Below are positions 15,114-17,963 of a DNA stretch of 51,345 bases, in pieces. Each line of letters begins with the position of its first letter. Position 1 is the first letter of the stretch. The position numbers and the translations under genes were made by a program. A model generated the notes under the pieces. It searched no databases, was not told the DNA's origin, and was given only the letters and a program-made list of their open reading frames with translations. The stretch is from Acidobacteriota bacterium (lineage in GTDB: Bacteria > Acidobacteriota > Terriglobia > Bryobacterales > Bryobacteraceae), in contig VFZY01000011.1 of assembly GCA_016870915.1 (NCBI GenBank), positions 1 through 51,345 of the forward strand. Reading direction: 5' to 3'.

Positions 15114-15834
15114 CACCGCCGTCTGTCGCCTCGCCGCCCAGGAATCGCCAATGATAGTACCACGCGGTGAAGGCGACCCCTATGAAACCGTTCGCCGCCT
15201 CCGCGCCTCGCAACCCACCACCCCGGCGGAGTTGAAGCGGCTGGCCATCGCGTACTCGCAGGCCCAGCAGTGGCTCCTGTTCCGCCAGACCATCGAACGG
15301 GTTCTGGAACTCGACCCCAAGGACGCCAGCGCCCGCTTTGCCTTGGGCAGCTATTGGATGAACCGGGCAGACGACGGCGTCCGGGCGGAGGCGGAGTTCC
15401 GGGCCGTGATCGCACAGGATCCGGGCCACTCGCTGGCCCGCTACCATGTCGGAATACTGCACGAAAAACGCAATGAATGGCCGGAAGCAGACACAGAATA
15501 CCGGAAAATGGGCGATTCTAGCGCCCTCGGATGGCTGGGCCGGGCCCGGGTGAGCCGAGCCGTGGGGAACGAACCCGAGGCGCTCGAGCGGGCGCTCAAG
15601 GCGGAATCCCTGGACCCGGGGAACCTGGAGGCGGTCCGCTTTCTCGCCAGGCAGCTTCAGTCTCAGGCCCCCCGGGAAGCCGCGGCCCGGTGGCGCAGGC
15701 TGACGGAAGCGGAACCAAACGAAGCCAATCACTGGTACGGGCTGTACCGGGCCCTGGCCGCTCTGGGAGACCCGGGGGCGGAGGCGGCCCGGGTTCGTTT
15801 CGACGAAGTCCGGCAGGCCTACGGAACCCGGTAG
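15082..15834 (+). CDS. TPR repeat protein, probably exported
   Basis: A 250-aa protein if translation starts at 15082 (MLARSVLVPLITAVCRLAAQ, signal-like). Starts at 15022, 15058 or 15151 (no signal) are also open. TPR-type helix pairs run from about residue 50: LKRLAIAYSQAQQWLLFRQT, DASARFALGSYWMNRADDGV, then SLARYHVGILHEKRNEWPEA, and a final NHWYGLYRALAALGDPGAEA. It would bind other proteins. The two TPR genes diverge with overlapping 5' ends, so each promoter must lie within the other's coding sequence, or one of the starts is further downstream. Confidence 0.7.
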   Translation: MLARSVLVPLITAVCRLAAQESPMIVPRGEGDPYETVRRLRASQPTTPAELKRLAIAYSQAQQWLLFRQTIERVLELDPKDASARFALGSYWMNRADDGVRAEAEFRAVIAQDPGHSLARYHVGILHEKRNEWPEADTEYRKMGDSSALGWLGRARVSRAVGNEPEALERALKAESLDPGNLEAVRFLARQLQSQAPREAAARWRRLTEAEPNEANHWYGLYRALAALGDPGAEAARVRFDEVRQAYGTR

Positions 15835-15905
15835 TTTGAACCGGCCCCGGCCCCTGTGCTACTGTCGAAATTCCGCGTAATTCGTGGAAACCGGGTGACT
15901 TCCGG

Positions 15906-16598
15906 GTGCGTCGTACCGGATGTATGGCAACCGCACTCACGCTGACCGGCATCGCGGTACCCGGCTTTGGACTGAGGGAAAGCACCGCACGAGCCAGGAC
16001 GAAAGTGGATCAACGCAACGAAGAAGCCGCGCTGATCAGCCGGGCTCAGGCCAGGGATGAACTGGCATTCCGCGAATTGGTGGAACGCTACCAGTCGAAA
16101 GTTTTCTCCATCATCCACGGCATTCTGCGCAACCACAACGATGCCGAAGACATCGCGCAACAGGTGTTCGCCAAGATCTATTTTTCGATCAACTCCTTTG
16201 ATGCACGCAGTTCGCTGCTCACCTGGATCTACAAGATCACGGTCAACGAATGCTACGACTATCTGCGGAAGAAGAAGGTCCGGAAGCTGGTCTACGAAAG
16301 CGATTTTTCCGAGGATGACTCGAAGCGGATGGCCAACTCCGAAGCGTCGGCGGCCCAGGGGCCCGGCGCCGACGTGAACACCGCCAACCGCGACCTGGTG
16401 ATGAAGCTTCTGGCCAAGGTTTCCGATGAGGATCGCAAGCTGATCCTTCTGAAGGAAGTGGAAGGCCATTCGGTGGAAGAACTGGCCGCGATGACCGGCA
16501 TGAACGAAAACACCATCAAGGTGAAGCTGTTCCGGGCGCGCCAGAAGCTGGTGAAGGTGGCGCAGAGGCTGGGCCGCCGGGTGCTGGCGCAGGGCTAG
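15906..16598 (+). CDS. ECF RNA polymerase sigma factor
   Basis: RpoE-like sigma-70 family factor of group 4. Region 2 is clear (LVERYQSKVFSIIHGILRNH, then DAEDIAQQVFAKIYFS, WIYKITVNECYDYLRKKK), as is region 4 (DRKLILLKEVEGHSVEELA, MTGMNENTIKVKLFRARQKL). Starting at 15906 gives 230 aa; ATG 15924 or GTG 16005 (197 aa, the usual size, beginning just before NEEAALISRAQ) are possible and GTG 16005 is the more family-like. Directly downstream are a membrane anti-sigma factor and a membrane-anchored LTxxQ protein, so activity is probably controlled by an envelope signal. Confidence 0.92.
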   Translation: MRRTGCMATALTLTGIAVPGFGLRESTARARTKVDQRNEEAALISRAQARDELAFRELVERYQSKVFSIIHGILRNHNDAEDIAQQVFAKIYFSINSFDARSSLLTWIYKITVNECYDYLRKKKVRKLVYESDFSEDDSKRMANSEASAAQGPGADVNTANRDLVMKLLAKVSDEDRKLILLKEVEGHSVEELAAMTGMNENTIKVKLFRARQKLVKVAQRLGRRVLAQG

Positions 16599-16625
16599 GA
16601 TTAGGCATTGGGTGAGATGAGGCTA

Positions 16626-16631
16626 TATAAT
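16626..16631 (+). promoter_or_regulatory. TATAAT between sigma and anti-sigma genes
   Basis: A perfect -10 hexamer lies 100 nt upstream of the anti-sigma ATG. No good -35 is found at 16-18 bp. It could give the anti-sigma gene its own transcript. Confidence 0.3.
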
Positions 16632-16731
16632 GTGTTTTCCGAAGCGGGCGTGAGCCGCCGGGCGACCCGGCGAAAGACCCGTGGGAAACAGGGACGATCG
16701 ACGGCCATGGATTGCTGACAAGGATCCGACG

Positions 16732-17199
16732 ATGCATCAGGAAATTCGGCACGACTTGGAACTGTTCCTGGCGGGCTCGCTGCCCGCTGAGCGGAAGGCC
16801 ACGTTCAGCCTGCATCTGGAGACGTGCGAGGAGTGCTTCTCCGAAATGGAGATGATGATCGAGCACTCGCGCATGCTTCGGACGCTGCGCTGCGAGGAGG
16901 CTCTGGAACCGGCGCCCGGCTTCTATGCCCGCGTCATGAACCGCATTGACGACTCCCGCCGCCCGTCGCCGTGGGCTGTGTTCGCGGATGTGTTCGGCCG
17001 CCGGATGGTCTACGCTTCGATGGCATTGGTGGTTCTGGCCGGCGGCGTCCTGCTGTCGCTTGAGAGCGAGCCTCGCATGGAGGCTCTGTTTGTTCCCGCC
17101 ATGATGACCCCAACGGAAGACACGGCGCTCGATGTCAACTTCGATGTCCAGCAGCAGCGGGAGGCCGTGCTGGTGAATCTGGTCTCCTACGGCGAGTAA
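16732..17199 (+). CDS. zinc-binding anti-sigma factor, single-pass membrane
   Basis: A 155-aa protein with a cytoplasmic ZAS-type domain and one membrane span. The zinc motif is His28-x3-Cys32-x2-Cys35 (HLETCEEC), with upstream His2 or His7 as candidate fourth ligand. The membrane segment is about 93-110 (VYASMALVVLAGGVLLSL), leaving a 45-residue periplasmic tail. ATG 16732 is chosen because AAGGA precedes it by 7 nt and the extension from GTG 16681 is not conserved-looking. It should bind and hold the ECF sigma factor encoded upstream. The gene lies 133 nt after the sigma gene and 9 nt before the LTxxQ gene. Confidence 0.85.
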   Translation: MHQEIRHDLELFLAGSLPAERKATFSLHLETCEECFSEMEMMIEHSRMLRTLRCEEALEPAPGFYARVMNRIDDSRRPSPWAVFADVFGRRMVYASMALVVLAGGVLLSLESEPRMEALFVPAMMTPTEDTALDVNFDVQQQREAVLVNLVSYGE

Positions 17200-17208
17200 G
17201 TCCGAGCG

Positions 17209-17610
17209 ATGCAGGATCAACATCACTGGAGCGACGTAACCTGGCGTGATCGCCGGATTCTCGCGGTGCTGCTTCTGGTTCTTCTGGTGGGTGGCGTGGC
17301 CGGAGCGGCCGGTATGCGCCTCTTCATCCGCACGCGGCCGCCTCAGCTTTCACTGGGCGAGTGGCAGGCGGGCACGAAGGAACGGACCCTTGAGCGGTTC
17401 AAGCAGGAACTGAACCTTACCCCGGAACAGAGCGTTCAGGTGGAAGAAATCCTCGATGATTTCGTGATGTACGTCCAGACGCTGCAGGCCCAGATGGACG
17501 ACGTGCGGGCGACGGGCAAGCAGAAGATTCTTGCGTGCCTCACTCCCGAGCAGCGGGAGAAGTTCCTCTCCATGATGAAGGAACTGCAGCCTCGCGCCTC
17601 GGCCCAGTAA
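17209..17610 (+). CDS. membrane-anchored LTxxQ (CpxP/Spy/CnrX-like) protein
   Basis: A 133-aa protein with a short cytoplasmic N-terminus, one membrane span (about 18-39, LAVLLLVLLVGGVAGAAG), and a helical periplasmic domain. Two LTPEQ motifs, at 70-74 and 111-115, flank a long amphipathic helix. This is the arrangement of the CpxP/Spy and CnrX helical-hairpin fold. In the CnrYXH metal-response system a membrane-anchored CnrX of this fold controls the anti-sigma CnrY and sigma CnrH, and the present order (sigma, anti-sigma, LTxxQ) is similar. A histidine pair (His5, His6) lies in the cytoplasmic end. A role as signal sensor is inferred. Confidence 0.7.
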   Translation: MQDQHHWSDVTWRDRRILAVLLLVLLVGGVAGAAGMRLFIRTRPPQLSLGEWQAGTKERTLERFKQELNLTPEQSVQVEEILDDFVMYVQTLQAQMDDVRATGKQKILACLTPEQREKFLSMMKELQPRASAQ

Positions 17611-17624: not shown

Positions 17625-17963
17625 TCAGTAGCGGGCAACGCCGCGGTCAACATCCAGGCTCCAGCGGTCGATTCCACCAGCCAGACTCTGGCAGTTCTCC
17701 ACGCCATTGCGGCGCAGCCAGGCCACCACGTTCAGGCTGCGCACGCCGTGATGGCAGTACACCACCACATTGGCGTCCGCGGCCATCGTCTCGATATCCT
17801 GCAGTTCGCCCGGCACCGCGCGCATCGGGATGAGCACGGACGGCTCGATGCGCGCGAGTTCGCGTTCAAACGGCTCGCGGCAATCGATGAGGCGCGGGGG
17901 CGCCGGTCCGGCCAACTGCCTAAACAACTCGGCTGGACTCAATTCGTAGGGAAGCTCCTGCAT
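17625..17963 (-). CDS. rhodanese-like sulfurtransferase domain protein
   Basis: Single rhodanese domain, 112 aa, cytoplasmic (no signal). The catalytic Cys70 sits in the loop CHHGVRS, and the CDC25-like entry LIDCREPFER is at 25-34; GGIDRWS follows near the end. It would move sulfane sulfur from persulfides to acceptors. The short loop of six residues after Cys is typical of true sulfurtransferases rather than phosphatases. It converges with the sigma operon and is divergent from the MBL-fold gene (27 bp), so sulfur or thiol metabolism is only a guess. Confidence 0.88.
   Translation of the reverse strand: MQELPYELSPAELFRQLAGPAPPRLIDCREPFERELARIEPSVLIPMRAVPGELQDIETMAADANVVVYCHHGVRSLNVVAWLRRNGVENCQSLAGGIDRWSLDVDRGVARY

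Follow-up and report, generated by a model that had tools for sequence, protein, structure and literature searches.

Transcription factors of the ECF sigma family are held by anti-sigma factors, and the locus at positions 15,906 to 17,610 of the window (the whole stretch of 51,345 nucleotides analysed here) raises the question of which signal frees such a sigma factor when a membrane-anchored LTxxQ protein is encoded beside its anti-sigma factor. The first-pass annotation had placed an ECF sigma factor, a one-span ZAS anti-sigma factor and a membrane-anchored protein with two LTPEQ motifs consecutively on one strand. This layout was confirmed after correction of the gene starts, and the three genes were located as follows.

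15924..16598, plus strand: ECF sigma factor, 224 aa (Pfam Sigma70_r2, 62.6 bits; r4_2, 50.7 bits).
16732..17199, plus strand: class I (ASDI) anti-sigma factor with a zinc motif and one membrane helix, 155 aa (zf-HC2, AlphaFold and Foldseek).
17209..17610, plus strand: membrane-anchored LTxxQ (Spy/CpxP-like) protein, 133 aa (two LTPEQ motifs; Spy as best PDB matches).

The sigma gene was taken to start at the ATG at 15924, and the GTG at 15906 was considered unlikely, because the orthologues share an ATG-initiated N-terminus, M..GxLPFP... The most likely start of the anti-sigma gene was the ATG at 16732, within a listed open frame that opens at 16681. Its TAA stands 9 nt before the ATG of the LTxxQ gene, with both genes in a shared frame, and the cluster is bounded at its 3' side by a convergent rhodanese gene (17625-17963, minus strand). 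As the 130-bp gap between the sigma and anti-sigma genes is GC-rich, an RNA element was considered there; this candidate was rejected after Rfam gave nothing meaningful.

The order sigma, anti-sigma and LTxxQ on one strand was found at 127 distinct Bryobacterales loci (Acidobacteriota), with named records from Bryobacterales, Bryobacteraceae and Solibacteraceae, and three extra loci without a visible sigma gene upstream all lay at the end of a contig or of the fetched stretch. In every informative locus, the LTxxQ gene adjoined the anti-sigma gene. The LTxxQ protein was matched in 57 of 61 relatives, in 256 of the 257 genomes of the order Bryobacterales when an alignment of 26 orthologues served as the query, and in all 163 near-complete Bryobacterales genomes (163/163). 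Since order and strand were kept in 127 loci and the protein in every near-complete genome, the trio is not a chance arrangement. Across the phylum, where 43 of 149 Acidobacteriota genomes were matched, looser versions occur, and at 21 of the 29 loci inspected a sigma factor, a membrane protein and an LTxxQ protein again formed a trio. The genome of the window carries a second, diverged trio (sigma 310-1018, anti-sigma 1027-1462 and LTxxQ 1488-1908 of its stretch), the anti-sigma factor of which has no zinc motif, and a second, weaker LTxxQ match was also present in most relatives. A separate LTXXQ/Metal_resist protein, the sole one over the Pfam cut-off in this genome, had no sigma gene seen adjoining it. 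CALQCC020000007.1, a MAG titled 'Bordetella parapertussis', also has a sigma gene and a trio typical of Bryobacterales, and its title looks wrong.

The sigma factor contains regions 2 and 4 only (PF04542, 62.6 bits; PF08281, 50.7 bits), which places it in the ECF group, and it scored 98.9 bits against TIGR02937 (cut-off 42.9). Its score against the SigW model was 105.7 bits, which is under the cut-off of that model. Identity was 68-82% to the orthologues and 24% to CnrH.

The anti-sigma factor had been called ZAS-type and not CnrY-type, and we agree, as zf-HC2 was matched over its cut-off (25.8 against 22.2 bits) and HxxxCxxC is present. Three features of this protein are used below.

16813..16836, plus strand: HxxxCxxC zinc motif, H28-LET-C32-EE-C35 in the window copy.
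16909..16944, plus strand: anti-sigma helix 4, P-x-P-G-F-Y-A-R-V-x-x-R, the expected contact of sigma region 2 (G63, F64, R67 and R71 invariant).
17158..17196, plus strand: conserved periplasmic C-terminal tail REAVLVNLVSYGE, a candidate docking peptide (from column entropy).

AlphaFold predicted helices at residues 3-14, 19-31, 33-52 and 64-75 and a membrane helix at 80-109, that is, the three-helix bundle plus helix 4 of a class I (ASDI) domain. In Foldseek, the closest solved structure was RsiW (5wuq; probability 1.00, TM 0.70 by target length), followed by RslA and MucA, both with poor E-values. On these models, the cytosolic part is an RsiW-type class I domain. Helix 4 is known to bind sigma2 in class I anti-sigma factors (PMC7406223), and the near invariance of the stretch GFYARVxxRIE among the orthologues is what would be expected if helix 4 binds sigma region 2 here.

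A variable linker of low AlphaFold confidence connects the membrane helix to the tail, which has the pattern R-x-x-VLVxLxxY in essentially all orthologues. The column entropy in the tail was 0.9 (R), 0.7 (L) and 0.5 (L) bits, compared with about 3 to 3.8 bits in the preceding linker, and in some trios outside Bryobacterales the anti-sigma factors end visibly alike, e.g., DTRNMMLLFASLEE and PEQRNLRLMFSSLE. Judged from this conservation, the tail may be where the LTxxQ protein docks. The coevolution signal between the tail and the LTxxQ protein did not clearly exceed that of the cytosolic control (Neff 81). A read-through fusion of the two proteins, for which the shared frame was used and TAA was read as Q, was also modelled by AlphaFold; the anti-sigma domain and the LTxxQ helices were confident, and the tail was predicted as a helix with low confidence (block means 50-63, pTM 0.33, with a short linker and PAE missing).

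The LTxxQ protein has the following elements.

17251..17334, plus strand: membrane helix with an invariant GxxxG (G28, G32; AlphaFold helix 15-42, alignment of 26 orthologues).
17416..17430, plus strand: first LTPEQ, from the sequence.
17539..17553, plus strand: second LTPEQ, from the sequence.

The window copy scored 22.7 bits against PF07813, just below the cut-off of 24.3, and 19.2 bits against PF13801 (Metal_resist; cut-off 29.2); at E<0.01, 18 and 14 of the 26 orthologues matched these families, respectively. Its AlphaFold model (mean pLDDT 86.6) consists of one N-terminal membrane helix and helices 54-68, 72-110 and 113-126, and the two LTPEQ motifs lie at the turns of the helical hairpin, as in Spy and CpxP. 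Consistent with this, Spy chains were the best PDB matches of the family profile (E 6e-4). For this model, neither Foldseek nor VIA gave any clear relative. The likely cause is the weight of the long membrane helix in the comparison, and the outcome is no sign of a new fold. In a group of four loci, the LTxxQ proteins have no counterpart to part of the long helix present in other orthologues, and the anti-sigma tails of the same loci read M(L/F)xTLxxY or similar in place of VLVxLATY. It is possible that helix and tail changed together, perhaps in a single event.

The first-pass annotation had proposed a search for the sigma factor's own promoter motif, and such a motif, TTGAAACC-N16-CGTC, was found before the sigma gene, near a second promoter-like element.

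15885..15912, plus strand: predicted autoregulatory promoter of the sigma factor, TGGAAACC-N16-CGTC, 11 nt before the sigma ATG (PWM 19.6).
15855..15865, plus strand: possible housekeeping promoter, extended -10-like TGTGCTACTGT, weak and degenerate in the window copy.

The predicted sigma promoter was the best PWM site of the entire window. AACC-N16-CGTC preceded the sigma gene in 108 of 118 loci, always with a spacer of 16 and mostly 8-14 nt before the ATG, and the other ten loci carry visible variants; on the reverse strand of 351 kb, GAAACC-N16-CGTC had 0 matches. Trios outside Bryobacterales mostly had no promoter of this type. The sigma factor is predicted to regulate its own gene. A TCTGNTATNNT-like element before the sigma gene was present in 49 of 118 relatives and in 1 case in the reversed control. 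Another promoter-like site (15182-15212, plus strand; score 17.0), inside the upstream TPR gene, is probably a chance match.

In the genome of the window, the best second site preceding a gene (score 21.4) lies before bamA, identified as a four-POTRA Omp85 gene (POTRA 146 bits), and bamA of a relative from another genus is likewise preceded by a sigma-type motif. An unbiased set of 30 relatives' loci was then scanned with a matrix made from sigma promoters only and a shuffled background. The bamA upstream regions of 21 relatives exceeded the 99th percentile of the background, where 0.3 would be expected, and a convincing site was absent from the other 9; the start codon was mostly 35-43 nt downstream of the motif. 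Accordingly, bamA is a predicted member of the sigma regulon. The signal had earlier been left as unknown; with this promoter it can be narrowed, as a prediction, since a sigma-type promoter before bamA favours stress in outer-membrane assembly over a metal signal. How far the regulon extends is uncertain because the exact GAAACC-N16-CGTC sites in the genome (15) barely exceed those in the control (11). The sites of the sigma gene and bamA were the only ones that scored strongly, preceded a convincing gene and lay outside same-strand long coding frames; most of the 15 fell within long open frames and, like a match inside a moaE-like gene, were treated as noise. Sites of the TTGAAACC-N16-CGTC type were also seen before the gene of a GWxTD-domain protein in two genera, a possible regulon member, before genes of FecR-like proteins in two genera, and before genes of BON-domain (OsmY-like) proteins in two genomes of another family. 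These genes look envelope-related by their sequences and are regarded as leads.

With moderate confidence, we propose that the trio is a sigmaE-like envelope stress switch for outer-membrane protein assembly, in which the LTxxQ protein acts as a co-anti-sigma factor that is displaced by unfolded envelope proteins. The proposal builds on the trio itself, its domain types, the predicted autoregulatory and bamA promoters, and the conserved tail, all read from sequence. In the absence of stress, the cytoplasmic class I anti-sigma domain would keep the ECF sigma factor at the inner membrane. We infer that the LTxxQ protein then binds the tail (R-x-x-VLVxLxxY) and the membrane helix of the anti-sigma factor, that envelope proteins left unfolded or mis-assembled compete for binding to this LTxxQ domain, in the manner known from Spy and CpxP, and that the anti-sigma factor consequently releases the sigma factor or is cleaved off. 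The free sigma factor would use TTGAAACC-N16-CGTC promoters to transcribe bamA and its own three-gene operon; extra BamA would clear the stress, while extra anti-sigma factor and LTxxQ protein would reset the switch. The dispensability of the zinc motif and the conservation of helix 4 and the tail were counted in favor of this co-anti-sigma model. The specific version, in which a tethered Spy/CpxP-like domain serves as the unfolded-protein sensor by clamping the tail of a class I anti-sigma factor until competing clients release it, is more tentative, and we place it somewhat short of an even chance. If it holds, one small Acidobacteriota protein does the job of both RseB and DegS of E. coli.

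A switch driven by proteolysis is the strongest rival, although we regard it as rather unlikely. Here the anti-sigma factor would be cut stepwise, like RseA or RsiW; its tail would be recognised by the protease or give protection from it, and the LTxxQ protein would be a feedback chaperone, an output and not the sensor. RsiW and RseA are under regulated proteolysis, the anti-sigma domain is nearest RsiW, and a conserved tail at the extreme C-terminus suits protease control; furthermore, spy of Phocaeicola is simply co-transcribed with cirYZ and is described as a chaperone. Against this, a membrane anchor with an invariant GxxxG is odd for a bulk chaperone, the LTxxQ gene adjoins the anti-sigma gene at all informative loci, and the cluster is without a protease gene. 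This rival and the co-anti-sigma model are not mutually exclusive. Redox or zinc sensing through the ZAS motif, of the kind known from RsrA or ChrR, would agree with the HxxxCxxC of the window copy, which 96 of 120 orthologues share, and with a weak NCBIfam similarity of the anti-sigma factor to RsrA. However, the module is kept in 24 of 120 orthologues that lost the motif, so that zinc is not the sensor; moreover, the anti-sigma factor is membrane-bound, and zinc-binding and non-zinc class I anti-sigma factors mix freely, which suggests a structural role (PMC7406223). Redox sensing was thus rejected as highly improbable.

Sensing of the CnrX type, in which the LTxxQ domain binds metal and the sigma factor is freed, leads back to the earlier suggestion that the module resembles CnrYXH of Cupriavidus metallidurans. 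The resemblance stood for the general logic, as each system has a sigma factor, a membrane anti-sigma factor and, anchored in the membrane, a helical periplasmic protein of the LTxxQ/Metal_resist kind, and 14 of 26 LTxxQ members match PF13801 weakly. It did not extend to gene order, anti-sigma class, neighbours or metal site. In Cnr the genes run Y-X-H and end with the sigma gene, whereas the sigma gene is first here; CnrY is a 95-aa class II anti-sigma factor (PF17524), whereas the present one is class I, zf-HC2 and RsiW-like; and the metal site and RND efflux genes of CnrYXH both have no counterpart in this trio. With the CnrX reference taken from pMOL28, hhalign found nothing in common between CnrX and the LTxxQ family; CnrX scored 91.2 bits against Metal_resist (PF13801) compared with 19.2 for the window protein. 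In a by-hand alignment on the L-x-P-E-(Q/H) motifs, the key residues H42, H46, H119 and M123 of CnrX were all replaced, by L, K, an invariant Gly and Ile. The sole His column of at least 30% in the LTxxQ family (33%) lies beside the membrane helix, the window copy has no His past residue 6, no metal-efflux genes adjoin, and the predicted target is bamA. As the ligands are absent, metal sensing was rejected, and we give it very little probability; the LTxxQ protein is probably a membrane-tethered Spy relative that holds the switch off, and not a nickel or cobalt sensor. In C. metallidurans, mutating cnrX is enough to derepress the cnr operon, and so is mutating cnrY (PMC4803752), which is a precedent for a co-anti-sigma role of such a protein.

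No description of an outer-membrane stress response of Acidobacteriota, which are abundant soil bacteria, was found in the literature searched. The trio offers a concrete and testable candidate, with a named promoter, a bamA target, a candidate sensor and a docking peptide. If the co-anti-sigma model is true, Spy/CpxP-type domains would be direct regulators of sigma factors, and chaperone function and CnrX-type sensing would come under one scheme.

Among known systems, sigmaE of E. coli is an autoregulated ECF sigma factor under a membrane anti-sigma factor, with bamA as a target. RpoE-RseA-RseB thus shares an inner-membrane anti-sigma factor, a periplasmic partner, autoregulation and the bamA target with the present trio, where the last two are predicted; it differs in its promoter sequence and in having RseB as the partner, which is absent from this cluster, where the LTxxQ protein is found instead. 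SigW-RsiW of Bacillus subtilis provides the closest solved anti-sigma domain (5wuq), but it is a Gram-positive system without an LTxxQ partner. Spy and CpxP also have two LTxxQ motifs, but they are soluble, cleaved and periplasmic, whereas the LTxxQ protein retains its membrane helix and sits with an anti-sigma factor. The sigmaE regulon of Fusobacterium also includes bamA (PMC11005410). In Phocaeicola vulgatus, cirY-cirZ-spy has the ECF sigma, anti-sigma and Spy-like genes in the same order, co-transcribed and autoregulated with an envelope-gene regulon, and deletion of the anti-sigma gene raises sigma and spy (PMC13114119). It differs in belonging to another phylum (Bacteroidales), in that Spy is described as a periplasmic chaperone, and in a regulon that includes peptidoglycan-related genes and for which the accessible part of its report mentions no bamA (PMC13114119). 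An operon of a sigma factor, a hypothetical protein and a 'periplasmic heavy metal sensor' is also known in Azospirillum (PMC12826043). Because the Azospirillum operon and an ECF/anti-sigma/Spy operon, cirYZ-spy, exist, the architecture as a category is already known. What is new is that a class I anti-sigma factor, a membrane-anchored LTxxQ protein, a conserved tail and a predicted bamA target are combined.
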